From positions 1 through 46,491 of the IMG/VR virus record IMGVR_UViG_3300005613_004257: a DNA stretch of 46,491 bases. The stretch is one strand, 5' to 3'. The position numbers and the translations under genes were made by a program. The notes beneath the pieces were generated by a model that ran no database searches, had not been told where the DNA came from, and saw nothing but the letters and a program-made list of their open reading frames with translations. Shown piece after piece: positions 6,727-37,313 of this stretch; the first letter of the stretch is position 1, and every line of letters starts with the position of its first letter. This DNA comes from a virus.

Positions 6727-9700
6727 ATGGCTAGTCCTGCAATGACAAACAAACAGTTCTATCACACAAATCATTCACCAGAGATGGTTGTGTGTAAGGA
6801 CAGGGATGTGATGACTTTCTTCCAAGACATCCTTCCTTCCGATGTATCTGACCCGATGGAGCTATGGAGAGATGAGAATGAAAACTTCATGGCTTATGAG
6901 TATACCGGTAGCGGGCCATCAAGAGGAGACAGGGTGTTGATATGGGCCAGGACTTCGGGTATGAATCTGGTTTCGGCTTTTAGGTGGGTTCCTTATGTTG
7001 ATTCACGTAATCCGGATGAGACAGAGATAAAGCCTCTTAGAGAGGTTTATAATCCGAGGTTTGTGTATGACAGGACATCTAATGTATTGCATGTGTGGTT
7101 CTGGACTAATTTCAATATTGATTATAATGGTACGGAGTATGATGAGAGTCAGCTTTGGAGAATAAGTGATACTGGGTTTAAGAAGTTTCAGAAGGATGTT
7201 CTTGAGGAGAAGGCTAAGAAGGTGCTTTGTTATTCTCAGGGACAGATGAATCATTATTGGGTGAAGGGTGGTTTGATTGATGGTAAGGCTGTTCCTGGTG
7301 GGTCTGGTGGCTATAAGGGGATACAGTGGGGTTCACAGGGAACACAGGGTACGGACAAGTTTGCAGATGAGCAGTATGATTTGGTACCAATCTTTACGAA
7401 GCCTGTTCTTGTTACGAATATAGATTATGCTGCGGAGAAGTTGAAGGATGAGGATTATGTTTATCCTGGAGTGATACTTGACGGGTGGTTTGGAGCACAA
7501 GGCGGACAGGGGATTCAGGGATATCAGGGATTCCAGGGCTTTCAGGGCTTTCAAGGATTCCAGGGTTTCCAAGGTTTCCAGGGCTTTCAAGGCTTCCAAG
7601 GCTTCCAGGGTTTTCAAGGATTTCAGGGATTCCAAGGTTTCCAGGGTTTCCAAGGTTTCCAGGGTTTCCAAGGTTTCCAAGGTTTCCAAGGTCCTCAGGG
7701 TTTCCAAGGATTCCAGGGTCTTCAGGGATTCCAGGGATTTCAGGGATGTCCTGCTTGTATGAAGTCTGACGGTAACGCGGGTTGGTCTAGCCCATATCTT
7801 TATTGTCCAATACCATTAGGAGCACCCCCAAGTTATATCGACTATTGTTGGGAAATTGGTGAGACAGTTTGTATCTGGTTTGATGATAGTGGCAATATTT
7901 ATCAGGGATATGGTACTATTTCTAATCAGTATTCTGGACTTGTAGAGGTAACCAGCCCTACTTGGGTTGGTGCTGTTCCTACTGGAAGTGCGAGTGGTCC
8001 AGGTGGGGTATGTCACGGCATTTGCGCCCCAATGGGTCATCAGGGTTTTCAGGGATTTCAGGGATGTCCTGCTTGCGAAGCGACCGGTAGTGTTGGTGTA
8101 GGTAGTTCTCTCATCACAATCGGTCTATCTCATAGAGCCGACCAGTGCTGGGTCGAGGGTGAACTTGCTTGTGTGTCTATTGATACTGGGCCTGGGGTGG
8201 CTCTTGTTCATGGTCATATATCATTTGGTGGTGGGCCTTCTTCTTTCTCGGTAGACCTTACTTCTTTTGAGTGGGTCGGTGAGAGTCTCCCGAATGGTTA
8301 TTATTCTCCTGGTACTATCTGTCACGGTGGTTGTCCTCCGATGGGTCCTCAGGGTTTTCAGGGACCTCAAGGACCTGAGGGTCATCAGGGTGGCCAGGGA
8401 TGGTATGGTCATCAGGGTGGACAGGGTGTTCAGGGTCATCAGGGCTTTCAGGGATTCCAGGGATGTCCTGCTTGTGATGGAGGAGGTTCTGCTGCGGTTT
8501 CAGGAGGTGGAACCAGCGTTGTTGTAGCAGTGGCTTACCCTGCATGTTGGGAGCAAATGGGTAGTACTCCAAATATCGTTTGTGTTACGGTGGAGAATCC
8601 TACTGGTGCCAGCCACATGGGTGAAGGATATGTATCTAGTGTAGACTATGGCTCAAGTGCAGTGTATGTAAGTATTAATAAGTGGTACGGTGGGACTCCA
8701 CCTGATGGCGGTGCTGCTGCGTCGATATGTCATGGTTTTTGTCCTCCAATGGGTCCTCAGGGATTACAGGGATTCCAGGGATTACAGGGATGTTCTGCTT
8801 GTGAAATAGCATCGGGTGTTGATGTTAGTGGTGGAGGGACTACTTCTAATATAAGTATAGAAAATCCAGATTGTTGGGTAAGTGGTGAAGCAGTATGTGT
8901 TTCTCTTTCTTCTGGTGGTAATTCATATATGGGTTATGGGACTTTGGTTGTATATGGTGTCAGTTCGTTTGGTGTCACTTATTCTGGATGGGTAGGTGAG
9001 ACAGCACCTGATGGGACTGGTTATGATGCTACTATATGTCATGGTACATGTCCACAGGTTACTGATGGGTGTCCAGCCTGTGAAGATGGAACCTTTGTAA
9101 CTCTTACATTTACTCCTGGAGGAGATTTCTCTGAGGATTGTTGGGAGGTTGGGGCTGTAGTTTGTGTTTCTGGTGAGAATGGTGGGAATAGTTATATGGG
9201 CTATGGCACTATTGCTTCAACTACTGATACAACGATAGTTCTTGGAGGAATAACTTGGGTAGGTGATACGCCCGGAGCGGTTAATCTTAATCCTGCTGTG
9301 ATATGTCATGGCGATTGTCCTCCTAAGGGGTCTGATGGTGCTGATGGTGCTCAGGGACCTGATGGTGCTGATGGTGCTGATGGTGCTGATGGTGCTGATG
9401 GTGCTGATGGTGCTCAGGGTCCTCAGGGGGTTAATGGTTCTCAGGGATTTGATGGTTCTCAGGGATTTGATGGGGTTCAGGGTTCTCAGGGAGTTGATGG
9501 TGCTGATGGTTTTCAGGGTCCTCAGGGATTTGATGGAGCTGATGGTTTTCAGGGTAATCAGGGTCCTCCAGGACTAAAGACTGCTATTGTGAAGGTTGAA
9601 GAGGAGTATAAAGAATTGGTCTGTATGGAGGCACCGGAGGTATTATTCTTCGATGTGATGATGGTTCAGTGTCATGGAGTAGAGACTTTATTTAATGTGA

Positions 9701-9960
9701 ATGATACATTTAAGAAGGTATGTGAGCCTGGGAGTATTAGAGTAGTATCTGCTGTGCCTTCGATGCCTGTAAGGGTTGGGGTGGTTAAAGAAGGTGATGG
9801 ATTCATAGTGAGGTCGGATTATGATGGCAGATTTGTTGTGACGCTTATGGTATGCGGTGTCAGGCAGGGATATGCTGGTAGAAGGTTTGCAAGTAGAACA
9901 AAGAAGGATTATTTGAGGAATATGACACTGTACGAGGATATAATGTTAGGGAGGTTGTGA
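6727..9960 (+). CDS. Collagen-like (Gly-X-Gln) tail fibre with five Cys-rich cassettes
   Basis: 1077 residues. Residues 1-255 form a non-repetitive N-terminal part, probably for attachment to the virion. Residues 262-339 are 26 consecutive Gly-X-Gln triplets, mostly Gly-Phe-Gln. Then come five cassettes of roughly 80-100 residues, each opening with CPAC (CSAC in the fourth), containing a CW..GE/A.VCV core and a GYGT-like strand, and closing with CHGxC. Short GFQ/GPQ linkers separate the first four; the fifth follows directly. Residues 870-955 are Gly-Ala-Asp and Gly-X-Gln triplets, and about 120 residues of globular C-terminus follow. Gly-X-Y arrays of this kind form trimeric collagen-like rods in phage fibres (established for the class). 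The cassettes are probably surface-binding beta domains (inference). SD-like GGGGAG precedes the ATG. Confidence 0.85.
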   Translation: MASPAMTNKQFYHTNHSPEMVVCKDRDVMTFFQDILPSDVSDPMELWRDENENFMAYEYTGSGPSRGDRVLIWARTSGMNLVSAFRWVPYVDSRNPDETEIKPLREVYNPRFVYDRTSNVLHVWFWTNFNIDYNGTEYDESQLWRISDTGFKKFQKDVLEEKAKKVLCYSQGQMNHYWVKGGLIDGKAVPGGSGGYKGIQWGSQGTQGTDKFADEQYDLVPIFTKPVLVTNIDYAAEKLKDEDYVYPGVILDGWFGAQGGQGIQGYQGFQGFQGFQGFQGFQGFQGFQGFQGFQGFQGFQGFQGFQGFQGFQGFQGFQGFQGPQGFQGFQGLQGFQGFQGCPACMKSDGNAGWSSPYLYCPIPLGAPPSYIDYCWEIGETVCIWFDDSGNIYQGYGTISNQYSGLVEVTSPTWVGAVPTGSASGPGGVCHGICAPMGHQGFQGFQGCPACEATGSVGVGSSLITIGLSHRADQCWVEGELACVSIDTGPGVALVHGHISFGGGPSSFSVDLTSFEWVGESLPNGYYSPGTICHGGCPPMGPQGFQGPQGPEGHQGGQGWYGHQGGQGVQGHQGFQGFQGCPACDGGGSAAVSGGGTSVVVAVAYPACWEQMGSTPNIVCVTVENPTGASHMGEGYVSSVDYGSSAVYVSINKWYGGTPPDGGAAASICHGFCPPMGPQGLQGFQGLQGCSACEIASGVDVSGGGTTSNISIENPDCWVSGEAVCVSLSSGGNSYMGYGTLVVYGVSSFGVTYSGWVGETAPDGTGYDATICHGTCPQVTDGCPACEDGTFVTLTFTPGGDFSEDCWEVGAVVCVSGENGGNSYMGYGTIASTTDTTIVLGGITWVGDTPGAVNLNPAVICHGDCPPKGSDGADGAQGPDGADGADGADGADGADGAQGPQGVNGSQGFDGSQGFDGVQGSQGVDGADGFQGPQGFDGADGFQGNQGPPGLKTAIVKVEEEYKELVCMEAPEVLFFDVMMVQCHGVETLFNVNDTFKKVCEPGSIRVVSAVPSMPVRVGVVKEGDGFIVRSDYDGRFVVTLMVCGVRQGYAGRRFASRTKKDYLRNMTLYEDIMLGRL
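7510..7746 (+). repeat. 9-bp tandem repeat coding for 26 Gly-X-Gln triplets
   Basis: Twenty-six uninterrupted codon triplets Gly-X-Gln plus a final Gly. X is Phe except for single Ile, Tyr, Pro and Leu. Synonymous codons vary from unit to unit (GGA/GGC/GGT, TTC/TTT, CAG/CAA), so the repeat is conserved as protein rather than as identical DNA. All three forward frames and part of the reverse strand stay open here simply because of the 9-bp period. Confidence 0.95.
7747..9318 (+). repeat. Five diverged Cys-rich cassettes within the fibre gene
   Basis: Units run approximately 7747-8025, 8065-8334, 8464-8742, 8791-9051 and 9070-9318. Each unit has six Cys in the same order: C-x2-C at the start, two in the CW...VC core, and C-H-G-x-C at the end. 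The sequence between the Cys positions is diverged, which suggests old duplications kept for a structural fold or for ligand diversity. The pairs could form disulfides or bind a metal; the sequence does not decide this. Confidence 0.85.
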
Positions 9961-10472: not shown

Positions 10473-13400
10473 ATGGCTTTTATTTCGTTAGATGACAGTA
10501 ATGCTCTGGTTGTTCATGATTGTTATGACCAGAAGAAATTGGTTTCCGATATGGGAGGCCAGTGGGACCCGGTTTCCAGAACCTGGAAAGTCGTTTTCAC
10601 GATGTCGAACCTTGAATCCCTTATTGATGGGTTTGATGTTATAGGTGTTGATGATAGCGTTGAAGCGGCTGCTCTGTTGCAGGGAGAGAAAGAGCAGCGT
10701 TTGGAGCGTTTGCGGGAAATGTCTAAAGCGGATGTACCTGTCCGATTAATGATTCCGGGTCTGAAGGTTAGTCTCTATAACTACCAAAAGCTAGGCGTTA
10801 TGTATTCTGTAACTAATGGGGTTGGAGTCTTATTGGCTGATGAGATGGGTCTTGGAAAAGCTTTGGCAGAAGGTACTGAGGTTTATACCCCTTATGGTAG
10901 AAAGAATATAGAGGATATAAGAGTTGGAGATGAGGTGATTGGGAGTGATGGTTGTGCTACAAGGGTGATGGGTTTTTATCCTCAGGGAAGAAGGAAAGCT
11001 TACCGTGTTTCTTTTTCAGATGGTGCTAGTGTGGATTGTTGTAAAGAGCACTTATGGCAGGTTAATACGGCTACTCGTAAGAATCGTGGAAATCCTTCTC
11101 TAGTTAAGACTACGGAGGAGATAATAGAGGACGGGTTGGTTAGAAGAAATGGAAAGAATGGGGAAAGATGGAATTGGTATATACCATTAACCAAACCAGT
11201 TAATTTTGTTACAAGGAGTATTATATTGGATGAGTTACCTCCTTATGTTTTAGGGATTTTGATGGGTGATGGAGCTCTTTCTAATGGTAGGATTGGCTTT
11301 TCTAGTGGGGATAGTGAGATAATTGAAAGAGTTGAATCTTTGATGGGTAAAGATTGGCATGTTAGAAAATGTGGGGGAAAGTATGATTATGAGATTTCAA
11401 GAATAAGTTTCAGAACAGCATGTCAGGATGACCTGGTACATAAGTTTTTGAGAGAAAGAGGTTTGAAGAGAGTAAAATCTCCTGATAAGTGGATTCCAGA
11501 TGAGTATCTTTATTCACCTTTAGATGACCGTTTAGAGCTTTTAAGGGGTCTGTTGGATTCTGATGGTACTGTTTCAAAAGGGGAGAGAGGTAATGCTTGT
11601 GTGTTCTCTACTACTTCTTCTGATTTAAGAGATGCGGTGGTATGGTTGTGTAGGTCCTTGGGTGGAACAGCATCTTGTGGAAGAAAGAGTCCTTTCTATT
11701 ATAAGGATGGGAAGAGGATTTATTGTAGGGAGGCTTGGAATGTAACAGTATCTTTGCCAGGAGGCATGTGTCCTTTTTATTTAAAAAGGAAGGCTTCTGA
11801 GTATTTAAATTGTCGTTTAAAGTACCCGCCATCTAGGGCAATTACATCTATAGAAAGGGTTGGAGAGAAAGAGATGTATTGTATAGCAGTAGATGCTGAA
11901 GATAGTCTTTATGTGACGAAGGATTTTGTTGTGACTCATAATACGATACAGGCTATATCTACTGCTCTAATGTTGAAGTTTAGAGGTCTTGCTAAAAAGG
12001 GTCTTATAGTCACTCCTGCCTCATTGAAATTCAACTGGCCTCTCGAGATAGAAAAGTTCACGGATGAGAAATATGTAATCATAGATGGTAGTCCTGATGA
12101 AAGGGTAGCCCAGTGGCTCAGAGATGATGTCTTTTTCTATGTGGTTAATTCGGAGCTTGTACTGGAGGATTTGTTTGGTGGTAGGGAGTTCAAGGCCAAG
12201 AAGGGAGAGACGCCTCAACAGGCGGCCAGGAGGAAGGCCAGAATAGCCAAAGCCAAGGCCAGGGAGAGGATTCTTGGGCCGGTAAGAAGGAGGATGTGGG
12301 ACTTTATAGCGGTGGATGAGTGTTTCCCATATTATACACCTGTGATTACAGATAGGGGTATTATACCGATAGGTCAGATTGTAGAAAATTGTCTTAATGT
12401 GTCCGTTTTATCTTGTGATTTTTCAACAAATGAGTTATCATACAAGAAGGTAGTTAGGTATATTGACAAGCCTTTGGCTGGATGTCTTGTAGAGATAAAG
12501 CATGAGTTTGGAAGTCTTGTCTGTACGGAGAATCATCGAGTCTGGACGGAGGAGGATGGTTATGTTGAGGCAGGTAAAATCAAGAGGGACGGTGTTACGC
12601 ATTTGCGAGTGGTGCGAGGAGGAGTTTCAGGCACAGAAGAGGGGGAAGTCTACCCCGAGATTTTGCAGTCACAAGTGTTCGAACAGATGGAAACTATCTC
12701 AGCCGTCGGTAATAGAGAAGATAGTAGAGAAGCGAAGAATGCCGGAGAAAAAGAAGAAGTGCAAGGAGTGTCATGGTGTCTTCGTCGTGAGGACTGCAAG
12801 GGAACAGGAGAGAGTTTTTTGTTCAAAGAGGTGCAGTGCGATTTGGAGGACGAAGCACGAGGACGGGTGGGACATCAAGATGCGGAAGATGCACAAGGAA
12901 AGCATGAAGGTTATCAAGGGAGGGAGGAATCCATCGGCTTCTTTGAGAATGAAGATGTTAAATCAAGACCCTGTGTTCAGAAAGAAAGTGATGGACGGTG
13001 CTGCGAAGTGGAGGGAGAGCAATCCGTCATTTATTGCCAGAGGAGGGAAGCCGTTCATAACGGAGCCTCAGAGGATTTTGTATCAGATTTTGGGAGAGGG
13101 GTGGATACTGGAGTATGTGGTTGCCGACAAGTTGAAGATGGCGGAAGTAATAGAGTCTCCCCCGAATTTCTATCAGATAGATATTGCTCATCCGGAATTG
13201 AAGATTGCAGTGGAAGTAGATGGAAAGACTCACAAGACAGCGAAATGGAAAGTAATAGATGGCAGGAAGAACAAGGCTTTGTCTTATCTAGGGTGGTCGG
13301 TGTTGAGATTCTGGAACGAGGAGATTATGCAGGATGCAGAGGGGGTAGCGAAGAAGGTCAGAAAGTGTATAACCTCGAAGTAGAGGATAATCATAACTAT

Positions 13401-14414
13401 GTGGCTGACGGGGTATTAGTTTCAAACTGTCAAATGTTGAAGAGCCATTCCTCAAAAAGGAGTAGGAATGTAAAGCAGTTGAGGGCTAAATTCAAGATGG
13501 CGTTGACAGGAACGCCGATGGACGGCAAGTTAGAGGAGCTTCATAGTGTGATGGGCTTTGTGGCGCCTGGGTTGCTGGGTTCTAAGATGAGGTTTTTCCA
13601 GAAGCATGTTGAGACGGATTTCTATGGCAAGGTGACAGGGTATAAGAGGTTGTCTGAAGTGACGAGTAAAATTCAGCCTTTCTTCATAAGGAGGTTGAAG
13701 AGGGATGTACTGGAGGACTTGCCTGATAAGATTTATGAGAATAAGGTAGTTATCTTGTCAAAACAGGAGGCTGACATATATAAGAAGTTGGCTTCAAATG
13801 GACATGAGGCTACTGAGGATGCTGAGGCTGTGGTGGCTGTTATCAGATGTAAGCAGTTCTGTAATTGGCCGGGGATGATTGATGATGAGTGCCGGAAGTT
13901 CTCGAAGATGGATGCTTTCAAGGAAGTGCTCGATGAGGTTGTGATAGAGAATGGCAACCAGGCTTTGGTGTTCAGTCAGTATAAGGAGATGCTGGATGTA
14001 ATCGCGACTCATATCAAGGGTATGGGGTTGAAGTATTTAAGGATTGATGGTGATACTGACAAGAGGGACAGGGCAGATTATCAGAAGGTGTTCAAGGAGG
14101 ATAAGACTATAGATTTGATGATAGGTACTGAGGCCATGTCTACTGGTCTGAATTTAACTGCTGCGAGTTATGTTATAAACTATGATGATAATTGGGCACC
14201 TGCTGTGATGGCTCAGAGGGAAGATAGGGCTCATAGAATAGGGCAGTTGAAGGGTGTTACTGTTATTAATTTTATATGTAAGAATACGATAGAAGAGAGA
14301 ATAAGGGATGTCATATATGCAAAGTCGAAAGTGACTGCTACTGTGTTGGGTGATGATATTGATGAGATGGTTTTAAAGAGGCTGGGTCCGAAGGACGTAG
14401 CAAAATTGTTATAG
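10473..14414 (+). CDS. SNF2/HARP-like DNA helicase precursor with two inteins
   Basis: 1313-residue precursor, about 583 residues after removal of both inteins. Residues 1-75 resemble the N-terminal part of HARP/SMARCAL1-like helicases. Motif I is ADEMGLGK (ending at residue 129) and continues as TIQAIS after intein 1 (residues 130-490). Motif II is VDE followed by CQ after intein 2 (residues 617-985). Later motifs include TGTPMDGKLEE, a FSQYKEM block, and motif VI QREDRAHRIGQ. The family translocates on double-stranded DNA and remodels forks; here a role in replication or recombination is inferred from the neighbours. The ATG at 10473 has GGAGG upstream. The next gene starts 7 bases after the stop. 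Activity requires protein splicing, since both inserts interrupt ATPase motifs. Confidence 0.9.
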   Translation: MAFISLDDSNALVVHDCYDQKKLVSDMGGQWDPVSRTWKVVFTMSNLESLIDGFDVIGVDDSVEAAALLQGEKEQRLERLREMSKADVPVRLMIPGLKVSLYNYQKLGVMYSVTNGVGVLLADEMGLGKALAEGTEVYTPYGRKNIEDIRVGDEVIGSDGCATRVMGFYPQGRRKAYRVSFSDGASVDCCKEHLWQVNTATRKNRGNPSLVKTTEEIIEDGLVRRNGKNGERWNWYIPLTKPVNFVTRSIILDELPPYVLGILMGDGALSNGRIGFSSGDSEIIERVESLMGKDWHVRKCGGKYDYEISRISFRTACQDDLVHKFLRERGLKRVKSPDKWIPDEYLYSPLDDRLELLRGLLDSDGTVSKGERGNACVFSTTSSDLRDAVVWLCRSLGGTASCGRKSPFYYKDGKRIYCREAWNVTVSLPGGMCPFYLKRKASEYLNCRLKYPPSRAITSIERVGEKEMYCIAVDAEDSLYVTKDFVVTHNTIQAISTALMLKFRGLAKKGLIVTPASLKFNWPLEIEKFTDEKYVIIDGSPDERVAQWLRDDVFFYVVNSELVLEDLFGGREFKAKKGETPQQAARRKARIAKAKARERILGPVRRRMWDFIAVDECFPYYTPVITDRGIIPIGQIVENCLNVSVLSCDFSTNELSYKKVVRYIDKPLAGCLVEIKHEFGSLVCTENHRVWTEEDGYVEAGKIKRDGVTHLRVVRGGVSGTEEGEVYPEILQSQVFEQMETISAVGNREDSREAKNAGEKEEVQGVSWCLRREDCKGTGESFLFKEVQCDLEDEARGRVGHQDAEDAQGKHEGYQGREESIGFFENEDVKSRPCVQKESDGRCCEVEGEQSVIYCQRREAVHNGASEDFVSDFGRGVDTGVCGCRQVEDGGSNRVSPEFLSDRYCSSGIEDCSGSRWKDSQDSEMESNRWQEEQGFVLSRVVGVEILERGDYAGCRGGSEEGQKVYNLEVEDNHNYVADGVLVSNCQMLKSHSSKRSRNVKQLRAKFKMALTGTPMDGKLEELHSVMGFVAPGLLGSKMRFFQKHVETDFYGKVTGYKRLSEVTSKIQPFFIRRLKRDVLEDLPDKIYENKVVILSKQEADIYKKLASNGHEATEDAEAVVAVIRCKQFCNWPGMIDDECRKFSKMDAFKEVLDEVVIENGNQALVFSQYKEMLDVIATHIKGMGLKYLRIDGDTDKRDRADYQKVFKEDKTIDLMIGTEAMSTGLNLTAASYVINYDDNWAPAVMAQREDRAHRIGQLKGVTVINFICKNTIEERIRDVIYAKSKVTATVLGDDIDEMVLKRLGPKDVAKLL
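10860..11942 (+). other. Intein 1: class 3 (W-C-T), LAGLIDADG type, at the Walker A Lys
   Basis: 361 residues inserted between GK and T of motif I. It begins Ala-Leu-Ala-Glu-Gly-Thr instead of Cys or Ser and ends Thr-His-Asn before Thr+1. The three residues that define class 3 inteins are present: Trp in block B (HLWQV, codon 11055-11057), Cys in block F (MYCIAVD, codon 11880-11882) and Thr in block G (VVTHN, codon 11934-11936). Two LAGLIDADG-like motifs, LGILMGDGAL and LLRGLLDSDGTV, mark an in-frame homing endonuclease. Class 3 inteins start splicing through the block F Cys (established knowledge). All key residues are intact, so it is probably active. Confidence 0.9.
12548..12564 (+). promoter_or_regulatory. 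Internal ribosome binding site for the nested endonuclease
   Basis: GGAGGAGG at 12548-12555, six bases before the ATG at 12562. In the intein frame the same bases encode part of the TEEDGY segment just after block B. An ATG at 12556 is also in the endonuclease frame but would sit directly on the SD. Confidence 0.6.
12562..13383 (+). CDS. Vsr/EDxHD-like homing endonuclease nested out of frame in intein 2
   Basis: 273 residues in the +1 frame relative to the helicase. The open frame reaches back to 12502, but the ATG at 12562 has a strong GGAGGAGG (12548-12555) six bases upstream. Two treble-clef-like zinc fingers use C15, C18, C35, C39 and C67, C70, C87, C91. A helical segment with DPVFRKK follows. 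The C-terminal nuclease core has D207, the EVDG..H motif (E218, D220, H224), D233 and LGWSVLRFWNEEI, as in Vsr-like/DUF559 and EDxHD homing enzymes (PD-(D/E)XK-like fold). The stop falls inside block F of the intein. It would cut intein-less alleles and spread the insertion. Translation as a separate protein is inferred from the internal ribosome binding site. Confidence 0.85.
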   Translation: MLRQVKSRGTVLRICEWCEEEFQAQKRGKSTPRFCSHKCSNRWKLSQPSVIEKIVEKRRMPEKKKKCKECHGVFVVRTAREQERVFCSKRCSAIWRTKHEDGWDIKMRKMHKESMKVIKGGRNPSASLRMKMLNQDPVFRKKVMDGAAKWRESNPSFIARGGKPFITEPQRILYQILGEGWILEYVVADKLKMAEVIESPPNFYQIDIAHPELKIAVEVDGKTHKTAKWKVIDGRKNKALSYLGWSVLRFWNEEIMQDAEGVAKKVRKCITSK

Positions 14415-30901: not shown

Positions 30902-31879
30902 ATGAAGTATGCTGCTGACAGTTCTGGTAATGTTATATCATTTGATGGCAAGTTTAAACATCATGGTGTATCAGGTGTCCCAAAGGGGAGTATTTTGTGT
31001 CCACCTTTGTCTGAGCCTTCTGCTTCTGCTGCTGGATGTTTTTATATGTCTGCGAGTAGAGAACCTATGCAGGTGGTTTGGTCGGATGGTTCATCCAGGA
31101 GAGTGTTTGGAGTAGCGAGGGTATTTGGCAGATATGCAGGTGAGGAGATTCCTGAGGTAGTTAAGGCTTCTATGGTAGCAGTGTGTGGGCCGGTTTGTTC
31201 GATGCCGGATAAGTTGTCAGAATTGGTGGCAGAGTTGCCGGCAGGCAATGTGTATGCTTGTGAACTTGTGGATGGATTGCCTGCTATGGGTATGCTGGTG
31301 TGTTCGATGCTTGAGAGTAAGGGCTATAGAGTAGATTTCAGGCAACCTGTGATGCTAAGTGATAAAGATGAATGTCAGGTATATGAGGATGGCCTGGAGG
31401 GTGATGCAGAAGGCAGGATGGCTGACTTGGTAAACAAGGGAATGACTGTTCTGAATAAGATGTATGAGTCTCCTTGTGTGGGTGCGTTCGATGGGAGACT
31501 TTTGTCATTTAAGGAGTATGGAGACTCGGTGTATCTGTTGAGAAGAAATGATGTACTTGATTGGTTTCCTACGGAGAGTTTGTTGGTAAGGGATTATGCC
31601 TCTATGACGGTGCCGGTTGAGTTGACCAACACTGATAGTTTCAAAAACTCTACTGGTTGTACTTCGGAGAAGGTGAAGGTTATGGTTTCGTCAACATTTA
31701 AGAATTTAAGGTCGATATCGGATTTTATGAGATTCTTAAAAGTGATGTCGGGCAAGGGATGGGTTGTTTCTTCTGACCCGGGTAAAGTGTTGATGGATAC
31801 AGAGGTGCCGGTTTTTATGAATAATGGAGCGAGGAAAATGGGAGCTGATGAATACAGGGAGACATATCATGCTGGATAA
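30902..31879 (+). CDS. Unknown protein, start close behind a terminator
   Basis: 325 residues. ATG 30902 is the first start codon in the frame after an upstream stop; no ribosome binding site precedes it, because the terminator T tract fills that space. Several Met codons inside could be alternative starts. The sequence is mixed alpha/beta with scattered Cys. The last 11 bases overlap the preferred start of the Pol III gene. No family recognised. Confidence 0.6.
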   Translation: MKYAADSSGNVISFDGKFKHHGVSGVPKGSILCPPLSEPSASAAGCFYMSASREPMQVVWSDGSSRRVFGVARVFGRYAGEEIPEVVKASMVAVCGPVCSMPDKLSELVAELPAGNVYACELVDGLPAMGMLVCSMLESKGYRVDFRQPVMLSDKDECQVYEDGLEGDAEGRMADLVNKGMTVLNKMYESPCVGAFDGRLLSFKEYGDSVYLLRRNDVLDWFPTESLLVRDYASMTVPVELTNTDSFKNSTGCTSEKVKVMVSSTFKNLRSISDFMRFLKVMSGKGWVVSSDPGKVLMDTEVPVFMNNGARKMGADEYRETYHAG

Positions 31880-34800
31880 GTTTTATGGGGATAATAATAT
31901 TGATGAGAAGCAGAGAATAGCCGACAGGAAAGAAGTGCTCTTGGTGGTGCCGGAAAAGGATTATGATATCTCATGGGCTTTGAAGGGTCTGTTGCTTGAT
32001 AAGGCCGAGGTTGTTGTGACCTGGCCAAAGGATGATGTTGATTTACTTGCTGAGGTTTCGGCTGTTAGGGCGAAGGTGGTTCTACAACTTGGTAAGCAGT
32101 TCTCCAGGAAGTTTATGTTTGCTGAGGATGAGTCGGGACTTGATGCTGTAAAGAAGTCTATTGAAAATGGTTTGCCTGATGAGTATGTGGTACTTCATCA
32201 TCATGATGAATTCAGCATACGTGATGGTGTTGGCTCGATGAAACAACTTTTGAAATTGATTAAGGCCCAGGGAAGGTCTTTTTGCTGTGTGACTAATCAC
32301 GGAAGTGTGGGTGGTTGGATAAAGCAGTATAACGAGTGTAAAAAGGCTGGTGTAAAGGCTATATTTGGGATGGAGGCCTATGTAAGTGGTTACAGAGGTG
32401 ACGACCCTGAAGAAAGAAAGAAGCATAGGTCGGCAAATCATCTTGTTCTTTTGGCTAAGAATATGGAGGGCTTCGAGAATATAATTAAGATTCATAATGA
32501 TGCCCAGATTGATGGATTTTATTACTCACCCAGGATTGTTGCTGATACTGCTAAGAGGTATGGCAAGGGTGTCGTGGCGACTTCTGCATGTATGAAGGGC
32601 GAGATTGCTACTGCTCTTATGGCTGGTGAGAAGGATAAGGCGCTTGAGGTTTATAAGACCTACTCAGAGGCTTTTGATGAGTTCTATATAGAGATTCAGA
32701 TTATAGAGTTTGAGATGCAGCGTGAGGCTAATAGGTTGCTTATAGAGTTTGCCAAAGAGGTTGATGCTCCTTTGATTCTGGCGTGTGATAGTCATTATCT
32801 GGAGCCTGAGCATTCTGAGACTCATGACCTGTTGATGTGTATAAGGCAGGGTAAGACAATAATGGACCAGCATGAGAAGGATGATGTGTGGAGCTTCGAG
32901 GTGAAGAATCTGTATTATAGAAATGCTTCTCAGATGAGGGATGTTTTTGAGAGTGGTTATGTAGACAGGAATGGGGATAAGCAGGAGCCGTTCAAGGATG
33001 ATATCTTTACTGAAGAGGTGTTTAGAGAGGCAATGGCTAATACCAGGAAGGTAGCTGTTGAGGCTGAGGATATAGAGCTTGACTCGACTATCAAATTACC
33101 GAAGTTGTACCAGGATAGTAAGAAGATGTTGAGGAAGAAAGTGAATGAGGGTTTCACTAGAAGGGGTCTTGGTAAGGTAACAAACTCAAAGGAGTATCTT
33201 GATAGGGTAAGGTATGAGTTTGATGTAATAAACAAGTTGGGTTGGGCTGATTATTTTCTTGTGATGGATAAGATTGTGTCTGCGTCTGTGGAGAAGTTTG
33301 GGGAGTGGGCAATAGGTTATGGCAGGGGTTCTGCTGCTGGGTCGTTGGTGTCGTATTGTCTTGGACTGACGGATATAGACCCGGTGGAGTATGGTTTGCT
33401 GTTTGAGAGATTCCTTGATGAGGGTCGTCCTGACCCGCCTGATATTGATACTGACTTTGACCCAAGAATAAGGGAGTGGGTAAAGCAGTATATAGTTGAG
33501 GCTTTTGGAGAGGACAATGTGTGTTCGATAGGTACTTATCAGACCTATAAGACAAGGGCTGTGATACTGGACGTGGCAAGGGCTCTGGGAGAGGATGTCA
33601 TAGAGGCTAACCAGGTTACAAAGAGGATGGACCCGTTGAAGTCGTTTGAGGATGAAGAGGGAGAGTCTCATAAGGTTGATGATATGGGATTTGATGAACT
33701 TTGTGAGCAGTATCCTGAGTTGAATGATTACTTTGAGATTCATCCTGATGTAAGGATGCATTCTGAGATTCTTAGGAATCAGGTTAAGAATATGGGTACC
33801 CATGCTGGGGGTATGATAATCTCTGACATGAACCTGAAGGGTAGAATACCTGTATTATGGGATAAGGCTTCGAGTGCGGAGCGTAAGGTTATATCTGCAT
33901 GGGCAGAGGCTGGTGGCAATGAAGAACTTAGTTCTGTGGGCTTGGTTAAATTCGATTTGCTTGGATTGAATAATCTTCCTGTGATATCTGATTGCGTAAA
34001 GTTGATAGAGGATACCAGGGGTGAAAAACTCAAGAGGCATGATATGCCGATTGATGACCGCGAAGCTATAAAGATTGGTTCAAAGGAGAATCTTGTTGGT
34101 ATATTCCAGTTGGAGAATCCGGGGACATTCCCGATAGCTAAGGAAGTTGGTCTGGAGTCGTTGGCTGATGTATCTGCTTTGACCTCTTTGATTCGTCCTG
34201 GGCCGAGGGATATGGGAATGGATATGACTTATGCTAAGAGGAAGCATGGGGAGCCTTATGAGTCGATAGAGATGCTTGAGGAGATAATGGAAGAGACTCA
34301 TGGTGTCATGACTTACCAGGAACAGATGATGAAGATTTCCAGAGTCATGTGTGGGTTTGATGGACCGATGTCGAATAAGCTCAGGAAGGCTTGTGGTAAG
34401 AAGATTAAAGAGCTGATGGACTCGATAAGGGAGAAGTTTATAGAGGGTGCACAGCCGAATATCAAGGATGGCAAGGTTACCCAGGCGCAGGTAGAAAAGA
34501 TATGGGACTTGATTGCCAGTTTTGCGAAGTACTCATTTAATAAAACAGTTGACAAGGATGAGTTGGTTTTATATAGTGATGGACGTACTGCTAGGATAGA
34601 GGATGTAAAATCTGGTGACCGAGTTGTATGTTTTGATGGTAACGGTTTTGTGGAGACAGAGGTTATAGAGCGTCATGACCATGGATGTCTTCCGGCTTAT
34701 GAGTATGTTTTTGATGATGGTTCGGTTCATGTATGTACTGTGAATCATAAGTTTTTGACATCTGAAGGACAGCTTCCAATAAGGGATGTATTTAAACGAG

Positions 34801-37313
34801 GACTTGGGGTTTATGCCAAAGGCATTGAAAAATTGGAAATGTCTGACGTGCGGAGATGTATTTCAGACAAAGAGAGCATTGGCTCTACATCGGAAGGAAA
34901 GCGGACATTCACAGAAAGGGTGTCCGAAGAAATCCAGATGTGTGGGGTGCGGATTGGAAATGAAGACGGAAAGGGAATGCAGTCGTCATCAGGCTTCGTG
35001 TCCGAGTGCCATAGATGTGGCGAACAAAAACAGAAGAGAGAAGTGTTTTCAGAACCTGGAGTCTGCCAACAGGGTTCTTTCGGAAATGATGGAGAAGGAG
35101 AGGAAAGATGTCCGGAAGAGGACTATGGAGAATACTATTTGGAGTCAGGAGGTAAGAGAGTTGAGGTCAGAGATGATGAAGGGGTTATGGAAAGACCCAC
35201 TATTCAGAGAGAAGGCGATAAGGACTTCATCGGAAACAGCCAAGAAGACATCAGCGAGACCGGAGATTCAAAAACAGAGAACTGCGAACTTGGCTCGATG
35301 GAGAAAAGAACACCCAGAGGAGTTCAAGGCAATAACCAGAAAGGCTCAGGCGTCCCCGAAACACTCAAGGGCAGAAGGTTGGCTACAGGAGAGACTGAAG
35401 GGTCGCAGATTCAAAAGAAGCGTTCAGGTTCGGTGCGGGAAGAAGACGAAGCAAGTGGACTTTGTGAGGTCGGATATGTGGATAGAAGTAGACGGAGCAT
35501 GGCACTTCGGTCTGGACTTCACACGAAAACGCTATCCAGGAGAGAAGGTTCACAAGAGGGATTTGATGCTGAACAGAGAAGCGGAAAAGCGTCAAATAAC
35601 ATTAGTGAGGCTGGGATTGGGGTGTTGGAGGGGTCATGGAAAGAGAATACTCAAGGACGATTGGATGGAGTTTTTGATGCAGATGATTCAAAAGCCGGTG
35701 CCGGGTGTGTATCTGTGCGGAGAGTGTTATCAGAGCGGTTTGTGGGAGTTAGACAGATGTACGACTTGGAAGTATCTCACCCTTCCCATAATTTCTGTTT
35801 AGCGAGTGGACTCGTGACATCGAATAGCCATGCTGTATGTTATTCAGCCATATCAACTGTAGAGTTGTGGTTGAAGTATAATTATCCAGTGGAGTATATG
35901 ACAGCTCTTATCAATAATACTAAGTTGGGTAAGAAGAAGCACGGCAAGGATGTGTTTGTGTGGTATATGAATTATGCAAGGAAGAGCGGTATAGAGATAC
36001 TGGGTCCGGATATTAGTAAGAGTAAGACTGGGTTTACAATCGAAAATGGTAAGATAAGGTTCTCTCTGGGTCATATAAAGAATGTGGCTTCACAGGCTAA
36101 GGTGGTAGAGTCATTCCAGCCGATAAAGAGTGTTGAGGACTTCCATGAGAGGGTAAAGGCTGAGACTGTTAGTGCAGCGGGGAGGAAGTCTTCCAGAAGA
36201 CCTAATAAGAAGGTAGTCGAGCATCTTATAGCTGCCGGGGCATTTGATTGTTTCGGTACCAGGAATGAAATGATTGCAGAGTATTATAAGGTGAGGAAGA
36301 ATAAGAAGGATGGAGACCCGCCAGAGAGAACAGATAAGGAATGGCAGGAGTTGGAATTGGAAGTTACTGGTATGTGTTTGTCAATACCTCCTCTTTATAA
36401 GAGCTATCAGGAAGAGATTAAAGAACATAAGTTAAAGATGTGTGGTGATGTCGAGGAAGATATAAAGAGAATGAAAGTGTTCGGTAGGATAGAGGGAGTT
36501 ACTGCAAAGCGGTCGAAGGCTGGAAATCAGATGTTTATTGTTCAGATGGGTGATGGCATAGATTCATTCACTTTCTTTGTATTCCAGGCGGCTAAGGAGT
36601 ACTTTAAGGACAATTTCAGAGTAGGGATGATAGTTGGAATGCCTTTGAGTAGGTTTGATGATGGAGGAGCAAGGTTCTTTGATGACAGGGGAGAGCCTGT
36701 TATTATTCCGGAAAAAAAGGATGTAAAGGTAAATCATGTTAAGAAAGATATTCATTTACCTGGTGTGAATAATAGAAGGAAGATAAGGGTTTTAAGTAAT
36801 GGGTATGAGATTTATTTTTCAGAAGGGGATATTGAATATGAAGATGGGACTTATGACCAGTTTTATGTGAGTGTTGAGCAAGGTAGTGCTGAGAGTTTCG
36901 ATTATAATTCAGATTTTGTATTGGATAAGAATATATTTTTAGCCTTGATGGATTTAGGTAGTTTATATGGAGAGCAAGTAGTTTATGATGATTTCTTGAA
37001 GTTTTATAATATGACTAAGTCTGTTGTTGAGGGCAAGGAATTTGGTCAGATGCAGTCTGTTTTTGATTGTATATTGGAATTGTCAAAGAGGTATAGAAAG
37101 GATGCATTAAGAGTTGAGGTGGTATTCTCATGGTTGTATTCTGCTATGGTGGCAGAGGAAAATAAGAGAAATACGAAATTGGGGAAGAGAGTTAAAAGAT
37201 TAGGAGTGTATCAAGTTTTAATTGAGAATATGTCTCCAGAAAATGCTTCTGAGTTTTCGTGTGATAAGACGTGGCAGTGGATTGATGGAGAGTGTGAGAA
37301 GAGAGGTCTCTAA
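31869..37313 (+). CDS. dnaE: DNA polymerase III alpha subunit precursor with an intein
   Basis: 1814 residues from the ATG at 31869 (GGGAG upstream); the frame is open to ATG 31824. An N-terminal PHP domain starts around residue 95 (LHHHDEFSIRDG, VTNHG). The palm has PDIDTDF with D525 and D527/D529, then LIRPGPRDMGMDMTYAKRKHGEP. The FNK motif is followed by the intein (893-1319), then SHAVCYSAISTVELWLKYN. An OB-fold region (RIEGVTAKRSKAGNQMFIVQMGDG) follows near residue 1545. The last ~190 residues look different in composition. Splicing would give about 1387 residues. This is the replicative polymerase, so the phage brings its own, and splicing is probably essential for activity. Confidence 0.9.
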   Translation: MLDKFYGDNNIDEKQRIADRKEVLLVVPEKDYDISWALKGLLLDKAEVVVTWPKDDVDLLAEVSAVRAKVVLQLGKQFSRKFMFAEDESGLDAVKKSIENGLPDEYVVLHHHDEFSIRDGVGSMKQLLKLIKAQGRSFCCVTNHGSVGGWIKQYNECKKAGVKAIFGMEAYVSGYRGDDPEERKKHRSANHLVLLAKNMEGFENIIKIHNDAQIDGFYYSPRIVADTAKRYGKGVVATSACMKGEIATALMAGEKDKALEVYKTYSEAFDEFYIEIQIIEFEMQREANRLLIEFAKEVDAPLILACDSHYLEPEHSETHDLLMCIRQGKTIMDQHEKDDVWSFEVKNLYYRNASQMRDVFESGYVDRNGDKQEPFKDDIFTEEVFREAMANTRKVAVEAEDIELDSTIKLPKLYQDSKKMLRKKVNEGFTRRGLGKVTNSKEYLDRVRYEFDVINKLGWADYFLVMDKIVSASVEKFGEWAIGYGRGSAAGSLVSYCLGLTDIDPVEYGLLFERFLDEGRPDPPDIDTDFDPRIREWVKQYIVEAFGEDNVCSIGTYQTYKTRAVILDVARALGEDVIEANQVTKRMDPLKSFEDEEGESHKVDDMGFDELCEQYPELNDYFEIHPDVRMHSEILRNQVKNMGTHAGGMIISDMNLKGRIPVLWDKASSAERKVISAWAEAGGNEELSSVGLVKFDLLGLNNLPVISDCVKLIEDTRGEKLKRHDMPIDDREAIKIGSKENLVGIFQLENPGTFPIAKEVGLESLADVSALTSLIRPGPRDMGMDMTYAKRKHGEPYESIEMLEEIMEETHGVMTYQEQMMKISRVMCGFDGPMSNKLRKACGKKIKELMDSIREKFIEGAQPNIKDGKVTQAQVEKIWDLIASFAKYSFNKTVDKDELVLYSDGRTARIEDVKSGDRVVCFDGNGFVETEVIERHDHGCLPAYEYVFDDGSVHVCTVNHKFLTSEGQLPIRDVFKRGLGVYAKGIEKLEMSDVRRCISDKESIGSTSEGKRTFTERVSEEIQMCGVRIGNEDGKGMQSSSGFVSECHRCGEQKQKREVFSEPGVCQQGSFGNDGEGEERCPEEDYGEYYLESGGKRVEVRDDEGVMERPTIQREGDKDFIGNSQEDISETGDSKTENCELGSMEKRTPRGVQGNNQKGSGVPETLKGRRLATGETEGSQIQKKRSGSVREEDEASGLCEVGYVDRSRRSMALRSGLHTKTLSRREGSQEGFDAEQRSGKASNNISEAGIGVLEGSWKENTQGRLDGVFDADDSKAGAGCVSVRRVLSERFVGVRQMYDLEVSHPSHNFCLASGLVTSNSHAVCYSAISTVELWLKYNYPVEYMTALINNTKLGKKKHGKDVFVWYMNYARKSGIEILGPDISKSKTGFTIENGKIRFSLGHIKNVASQAKVVESFQPIKSVEDFHERVKAETVSAAGRKSSRRPNKKVVEHLIAAGAFDCFGTRNEMIAEYYKVRKNKKDGDPPERTDKEWQELELEVTGMCLSIPPLYKSYQEEIKEHKLKMCGDVEEDIKRMKVFGRIEGVTAKRSKAGNQMFIVQMGDGIDSFTFFVFQAAKEYFKDNFRVGMIVGMPLSRFDDGGARFFDDRGEPVIIPEKKDVKVNHVKKDIHLPGVNNRRKIRVLSNGYEIYFSEGDIEYEDGTYDQFYVSVEQGSAESFDYNSDFVLDKNIFLALMDLGSLYGEQVVYDDFLKFYNMTKSVVEGKEFGQMQSVFDCILELSKRYRKDALRVEVVFSWLYSAMVAEENKRNTKLGKRVKRLGVYQVLIENMSPENASEFSCDKTWQWIDGECEKRGL
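34545..35825 (+). other. Intein 3: in Pol III alpha, with Thr at position 1 and an overprinted linker
   Basis: 427 residues between FAKYSFNK and SHAVCYS. Block A is TVDKDELVLYSDGRTARIEDV, aligned with the usual CVDGDTLV but starting with Thr. Block B has TxxH (CTVNHKF). Block F is MYDLEVSHPSHNFCLASG, and the end is LVTSN before Ser+1, with Ser replacing the penultimate His. Between them ~310 residues of Gly/Glu/Ser/Arg-rich sequence have no recognisable fold; this stretch is the intein-frame reading of the endonuclease gene in the +1 frame. The site lies four residues after the position used by the split DnaE inteins of cyanobacteria. Confidence 0.85.
34813..35802 (+). CDS. Vsr/EDxHD-like homing endonuclease nested out of frame in the Pol III intein
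   Basis: 329 residues in the +1 frame relative to the polymerase. ATG 34813 is chosen over 34786 because the protein then starts directly before a zinc finger and GAGG and GGGG lie upstream; the site is weaker than in the helicase intein. Zinc finger 1 uses C10, C13, H26, H32; finger 2 uses C43, C46, H59, C63. A helical DPLFREK segment matches DPVFRKK in the other nested enzyme. The core has D216, IEVDG..H (E225, D227, H231), D250 and LVRLGLGCW. The last codons overlap block F of the intein, and the stop is 23 bases before the splice junction. Confidence 0.85.
   Translation: MPKALKNWKCLTCGDVFQTKRALALHRKESGHSQKGCPKKSRCVGCGLEMKTERECSRHQASCPSAIDVANKNRREKCFQNLESANRVLSEMMEKERKDVRKRTMENTIWSQEVRELRSEMMKGLWKDPLFREKAIRTSSETAKKTSARPEIQKQRTANLARWRKEHPEEFKAITRKAQASPKHSRAEGWLQERLKGRRFKRSVQVRCGKKTKQVDFVRSDMWIEVDGAWHFGLDFTRKRYPGEKVHKRDLMLNREAEKRQITLVRLGLGCWRGHGKRILKDDWMEFLMQMIQKPVPGVYLCGECYQSGLWELDRCTTWKYLTLPIISV

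Follow-up and report, generated by a model that had tools for sequence, protein, structure and literature searches.

The DNA polymerase III alpha gene of the virus studied here carries an insertion which is open in the frame of the polymerase from end to end and at the same time contains a second long open reading frame shifted by +1, and this raises the question of how one stretch of DNA can serve both frames. The window, i.e. the whole stretch of DNA analysed, comprises the 46,491 nucleotides of the IMG/VR virus record IMGVR_UViG_3300005613_004257. In ordinary mobile inteins a homing endonuclease domain lies in frame in the loop between the two splicing halves. For the polymerase insertion, another arrangement is very probable, namely a contiguous, cis-acting mini-intein whose loop is overprinted by the gene of a zinc-finger EDxHD homing endonuclease in the +1 frame, and for which we infer protein splicing, internal initiation of translation and cutting of empty alleles.

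The polymerase gene and its intein

The polymerase gene (31824-37313, + strand) was assigned by its ORF and by Pfam matches to the PHP, polymerase, finger, HHH and C-terminal DUF7004 domains. The ORF is single and unbroken, and the host protein is not divided over two ORFs as in a fractured gene. The DUF7004 tail (36825-37313) was matched with an E-value of 4e-38, and a tblastn search with this tail against the phage collection gave no match.

The intein (34545-35825, + strand) comprises 427 residues, T908 to N1334, between KYSFNK and SHAVCYS. It starts with TVDKDELVLY and ends with HNFCLASGLVTSN, followed by Ser+1. Its N-terminal splicing half (intein residues 1-92, 34545-34820), which includes Thr1 and block B (...CTVNHKF), was delimited by the AF2 model, Foldseek and phmmer, and its C-terminal half (residues 389-427, 35709-35825) contains blocks F and G and the match to TIGR01443. 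In the AF2 model both halves showed Hint strands at a high pLDDT of 86-95 and 83-95, respectively, while the frame-0 linker between them (residues 93-388, 34821-35708) showed hardly any structure and a pLDDT mostly below 50. These approximately 296 residues, predicted to be disordered, come close to the low-complexity linker of about 310 residues proposed in the first-pass annotation of this DNA.

A comparison with the Npu DnaE intein revealed a clear similarity both for the model (Foldseek against 4kl5, E 1.8e-6, rmsd 1.7) and for the sequence (phmmer, E 2.8e-12). Of the two splicing-block profiles, TIGR01443 was matched above its cut-off (E 0.0099) and TIGR01445 below (E 0.034). Judged by these splicing blocks at both termini and by the predicted Hint fold, the insert is an intein. 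The cyanobacterial DnaE inteins (Npu, Ssp) resemble it in sequence and predicted fold, but are naturally split, carry no nuclease and have a different junction; in the same DnaE motif, their insertion site is located a few residues further upstream.

With Thr1...Asn|Ser, the terminal Asn and the +1 residue fit the intein rule, while Thr1 is atypical. Since the homologous intein of locus L183 and nearly all members of the family have Cys at this position, splicing of the polymerase intein may be slow or impaired. Excision of the insert in silico rejoins the conserved polymerase motif KYSFNK|SHAV, and intein-free alleles at this site are present in two relatives, L002 and L185. In both of these an intervening sequence without an Rfam intron match interrupts the polymerase gene elsewhere, close to the PDIDxDF active site; in L002 (7600-8700) it contains a nuclease ORF.

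The nested nuclease gene

Over the linker, the +1 frame is open from 34783 to 35802 (339 codons), while the third frame shows many stops over the insert. Counted from the ATG at 34813, the nested gene (34813-35802, + strand; ORF, codon test) encodes 329 residues. A GAGG at 34798-34801, 11 nt before this ATG, could act as a weak Shine-Dalgarno sequence. The N-terminus comprises two zinc-finger-like Cys/His clusters (34840-35001), proposed on the basis of the sequence, weak zf matches and the similarity to the zinc fingers of the nuclease of locus L186. Further downstream, the putative EDxHD catalytic core D...EVDGxxH...D is encoded at 35458-35562, and the D, E, D-G, H and D columns are invariant or nearly so in an alignment of 40 nucleases including the one described here. 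By this catalytic signature, the nested ORF is a zinc-finger nuclease of the EDxHD (Vsr-like) type. ORF, frames and intein boundaries were thus found as first annotated.

Beyond this signature, the protein stands apart. Neither DUF559 nor any other Pfam family was matched, and tblastn searches against phages with the whole protein and with the core alone as well as a scan of viral contigs yielded no relatives. The structure model, of moderate quality (pLDDT 66), shows a beta-beta-beta-alpha-beta core, for which Foldseek returned no significant match in the PDB and Vsr only at E 2.2.

A second case in the helicase gene

The same arrangement recurs, as had been claimed, in a different gene and at a different site. 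The second intein (12321-13427, + strand) interrupts a SNF2 helicase (10473-14414, + strand; Pfam) at the Walker-B DE|C site. It clearly meets both splicing-block profiles (TIGR01445, E 3.5e-7; TIGR01443, E 1.2e-10) and comprises Cys1...Asn|Cys, ending in SN|C. Its +1 frame is open from 12499 to 13383 and contains a nested DUF559/EDxHD nuclease gene (12562-13383, + strand; PF04480, E 4.7e-13; codon test), whose product additionally matches 3hrl. The start ATG at 12562 is preceded at a distance of 6 nt by the Shine-Dalgarno sequence GGAGGAGG (12548-12555, + strand). Another, conventional intein with an in-frame LAGLIDADG domain and Ala as first residue is located in the same helicase (10860-11942) at the Walker-A GK|T site. 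A large gene of the window (6727-9960) encodes long collagen-like GFQ/GXX repeats.

Among the + strand ORFs of at least 100 codons, these two are the only ones in the window that lie inside another + strand ORF, which agrees with their earlier description as outliers, and both nested stops fall in the block F/G region, where block F had been named. The Ser-Asn ends noticed in the first-pass annotation hold for both inteins of the window, but are no shared signature, since most of the wider family ends in His-Asn. The proposal that both inteins carry the same endonuclease stands only in part. The catalytic residues are shared, hhalign aligned the polymerase nuclease to the helicase-site family with a score of 29.1 (E 0.0023), which was reached by none of 150 shuffles (maximum 21.9), and a direct comparison of the two nucleases of the window by BLASTP gave a weak match (E 5e-5). 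However, the two are not close kin, as the HMMER profile of the helicase-site nucleases and DUF559 both miss the polymerase nuclease. On sequence comparison, it is only distantly related to the helicase-site nucleases.

Selection on both reading frames

In order to assess chance, the codons of each nuclease were redrawn 2000 times according to the codon usage of the genome and the resulting stops in the host frame were counted. The expected number was about 32 for the polymerase and about 31 for the helicase case, with minima of 19 and 21 in the 2000 draws, whereas the observed host frame is open. Shuffling of synonymous codons within each nuclease never led to fewer than 7 host-frame stops.

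A host stop arises only where a nuclease codon ending in T precedes a codon starting with AA, AG or GA. In the polymerase nuclease, none of the 118 codons at such places ends in T, compared to 60 of 209 elsewhere (p 7e-14), and the helicase nuclease showed the same pattern with 0/100 compared to 50/172 (p 1e-11). Four control genes showed no such bias. In the split and free-standing relatives, whose host frame is not continuous, the avoidance is absent as well, with 9-23 such codons each. Both frames are under selection in the polymerase and helicase cases, and the arrangement is more than chance. Summed over all surveyed loci, the codons in question amount to 0/5545; this total is not independent, since loci were kept only with an open host frame, and the independent figure is the 118 of 122 loci given below.

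The constraint on the two frames differs. In nine close pairs of relatives, 152, 130 and 395 differences were found at the first, second and third nuclease codon position, and amino acids changed by 13% in the nuclease frame compared to 27% in the linker (host) frame. This indicates that the nuclease is the frame constrained in its sequence, while the constraint on the host frame is mainly that it remain open.

Distribution of the arrangement and the preference for the +1 frame

A tblastn search with the helicase nuclease matched phage records mostly annotated as helicases. In each of eight loci from isolated phages of Vibrio, Corynebacterium and Pseudomonas, the helicase ORF is contiguous and the nuclease is located at +1. 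While the helicase nuclease as sole query gave no match in a first viral scan, a scan based on the alignment of these eight loci succeeded and drew 80 loci from IMG/VR and 80 from bacterial genomes. After leaving out L124 and the 37 weakest genome matches (L146-L182), which comprise little beyond the catalytic core, 122 loci were classified. In 118 of them the host ORF is unbroken and the nuclease sits in its +1 frame; none has the nuclease at +2, and the remaining four are otherwise arranged. The frame offset suggested for comparison in metagenomes is therefore nearly uniform, and together with the resampling and codon tests and the eight isolated-phage loci this bears out that the arrangement is no accident.

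According to HMMs of the splicing halves, nearly all surveyed inteins are located at helicase Walker-B (DE|C-type) sites and have complete ends, mostly C1...HN|C. A profile of 40 nucleases of the family matched 3hrl with an E-value of 1.8e-13 and, at E 0.003, the EDxHD endonuclease 3r3p of a mobile intron. A census of Chloroflexota showed family matches at E <=1e-30 in 4 of 400 genomes, which points to a sporadic occurrence in bacteria. In every nested isolated-phage record examined, annotation had overlooked the nuclease, the region being labelled helicase, terminase or hypothetical protein.

The preference for +1 can be explained by the genetic code. At +1, any stop in the host frame has its T at the wobble position of a nuclease codon. 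A change there from NNT to NNC is always synonymous, so that every host stop can be removed without altering the nuclease. Dynamic programming over codon choice accordingly found unavoidable host stops at +1 in 0 of 106 nucleases, while at +2 at least one was present in 100 of 106. By the same reasoning, a mini-intein could host any endonuclease at +1.

Within a terminase intein of the Rhodobacteraceae phage LS06-2018-MD07 (L009, 2983-3792), a short HNH gene lies nested in the +2 frame, preceded by GGAGG. It is an independent nested case from another nuclease family, and since its protein has zero unavoidable host stops at +2, it fits the code rule.

Proposed mechanism and alternatives

In the proposed mechanism, frame 0 would be read through the whole insert, the linker being a disordered by-product of the nested gene, and the full frame-0 protein would splice itself to give active polymerase. 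The nuclease would be translated separately from the polymerase mRNA, most likely from an internal start close to where the N-terminal half ends. It would then cut intein-free alleles, and repair would copy the entire insert into them.

As the window is a single metagenomic virus record and indels are common errors, the two frames could in principle be due to sequencing errors or faulty assembly, or represent an in-frame endonuclease domain that decayed and was shifted by compensating indels. This is very improbable: about 32 stops would be expected in frame 0 over the nuclease but it is open, the avoidance of wobble T is exact, the nuclease residues are conserved, and the arrangement recurs with the same frames in phages isolated and sequenced independently and in bacterial contigs, some of them from isolates, which speaks against the assembly artefact considered at the outset. 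Still less credit is given to a group I or II intron spliced as RNA, with an incidentally open frame 0. EDxHD nucleases do occur in introns too, such as the mobile intron protein 3r3p, but frame 0 encodes both splicing halves, and Rfam detected no intron in the window at the gathering threshold and none in the insert up to E 5, apart from one chance snoRNA match.

The remaining alternatives concern the products of the two frames. The nuclease could be made by programmed frameshifting as a fusion to the N-terminal intein half, i.e. as a minor product beside the full-length polymerase, and the opening of the +1 frame shortly upstream of the nuclease as well as the weak Shine-Dalgarno sequence of the polymerase case would agree with this. 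On the other hand, each nested ORF examined offers an in-frame start codon close to its beginning, and GGAGGAGG precedes the ATG of the helicase case by 6 nt. Across the family, a Shine-Dalgarno match of at least 5 nt was found before one of the first four starts in 49 of 106 loci, a modest excess over the approximately 29% expected for four starts at 8% per internal start; the helicase case and L009 are strongly supported in this respect, the polymerase weakly and the family as a whole modestly. Frameshifting is therefore considered rather unlikely. Distinctly less probable is an insert that stays unspliced in the polymerase, the nuclease alone being the selfish element, as proposed for the methylase insertion of ShiLan (PMC11855218). 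While Thr1 and this precedent would fit, the intein has a complete predicted Hint fold with similarity to DnaE inteins and adjoins conserved polymerase residues, and in its helicase relatives the insertion breaks up Walker B, whose restoration is required.

Relation to known systems

The closest known arrangement is that of fractured genes, in which the halves of a split intein are separated by a gene for an EDxHD/Vsr-like endonuclease (Dassa et al. 2009, as described in PMC10448857 and PMC3653736). Both share splicing halves with a separately translated endonuclease of the EDxHD family between them, and the location in phage replication genes. In contrast to fractured genes, the halves described here form one uninterrupted protein, and the nuclease lies wholly over an open host frame with both frames selected.

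The ShiLan element likewise is an insertion, in a methylase gene, which keeps the host frame open and hides a mobile nuclease out of frame, but the nuclease is of the HNH type and no splicing domain is present (PMC11855218), whereas the inteins of the window combine full Hint halves with an EDxHD nuclease. Actinobacteriophage inteins of non-canonical architecture, cited in PMC11855218 for overlapping reading frames, are the subject of a preprint (Gosselin et al. 2025, 10.1101/2025.01.02.630785), which, as far as this citation indicates, may describe related cases. In a literature search of partial coverage, no report of an intein with the endonuclease out of frame was found.

Canonical mobile inteins with in-frame LAGLIDADG or HNH domains have Hint halves, a conserved insertion site and an endonuclease in the same loop in common with the inteins described here, which differ in that the endonuclease is encoded in another frame as a separate protein. 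The endonuclease 3r3p, which we take to be I-Bth0305I, an EDxHD homing endonuclease, carries the same catalytic signature, but is intron-encoded and not nested in an intein. In the nested arrangement, splicing and homing would be assigned to two proteins from one stretch of DNA, either of which could change or be replaced while the folding of the other stays intact. The overlapping gene pairs of the survey are also numerous and widespread, and the choice of frame in them follows a clear rule at the level of the code.

Split relatives and evolution

Two surveyed loci, L091 and L119, are fractured, with many host-frame stops between the intein halves, while L093 and L103 comprise free-standing nucleases. 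In L103 (3968-6036), such a relative of the nested nucleases lies directly upstream of an intein-free helicase. In L119 both halves share one frame and the nuclease is located at +1.

Relatives of the polymerase gene are few, and none of them showed a nested nuclease at this site. An intein homologous to that of the window (BLASTP, E 3e-21) occupies the same site in L183, but its halves are split and flank a LAGLIDADG gene. The polymerase gene of L183 contains at least three inteins; two of these are split and enclose separate ORFs. At another site of the polymerase (YQEQ|C...HN|C), L186 (4333-9321) carries a split intein whose halves enclose a zinc-finger EDxHD gene at +1, and in a uvsW-type helicase of a Salmonella phage (L005, 3290-6034) an unannotated nuclease-like ORF overlaps both halves of an intein-split gene.

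It had been suggested that intein and nested gene travel as one mobile unit, with a comparison of splicing domains and nucleases as a check. The distances of the two indeed correlate (Mantel r 0.66; partial r 0.43 given the extein), indicating that the parts mostly travel together. Since L183 combines the polymerase intein with a LAGLIDADG gene, the strict claim holds only in part: the unit is divisible, and exchange has occurred at the polymerase site.

Whether overprinting is a general, long-lived architecture of mobile inteins, in which a mini-intein can host any +1 endonuclease and stops in the linker are a direct route to split inteins and fractured genes, we regard as an evenly balanced matter. 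Such a route offers a testable origin for split inteins and predicts split relatives with both halves in one frame. The four examined split cases with a single nuclease on the same strand (L119, L186, L183 and the Salmonella phage L005), which show the fractured-gene state, all have both halves in one frame, consistent with an interconversion of contiguous and split forms.

An EDxHD-like homing endonuclease was also detected in an interrupted ribonucleotide reductase gene of the Pseudoalteromonas phage pYD6-A (L020, 2317-3216), where the host frame is not open.
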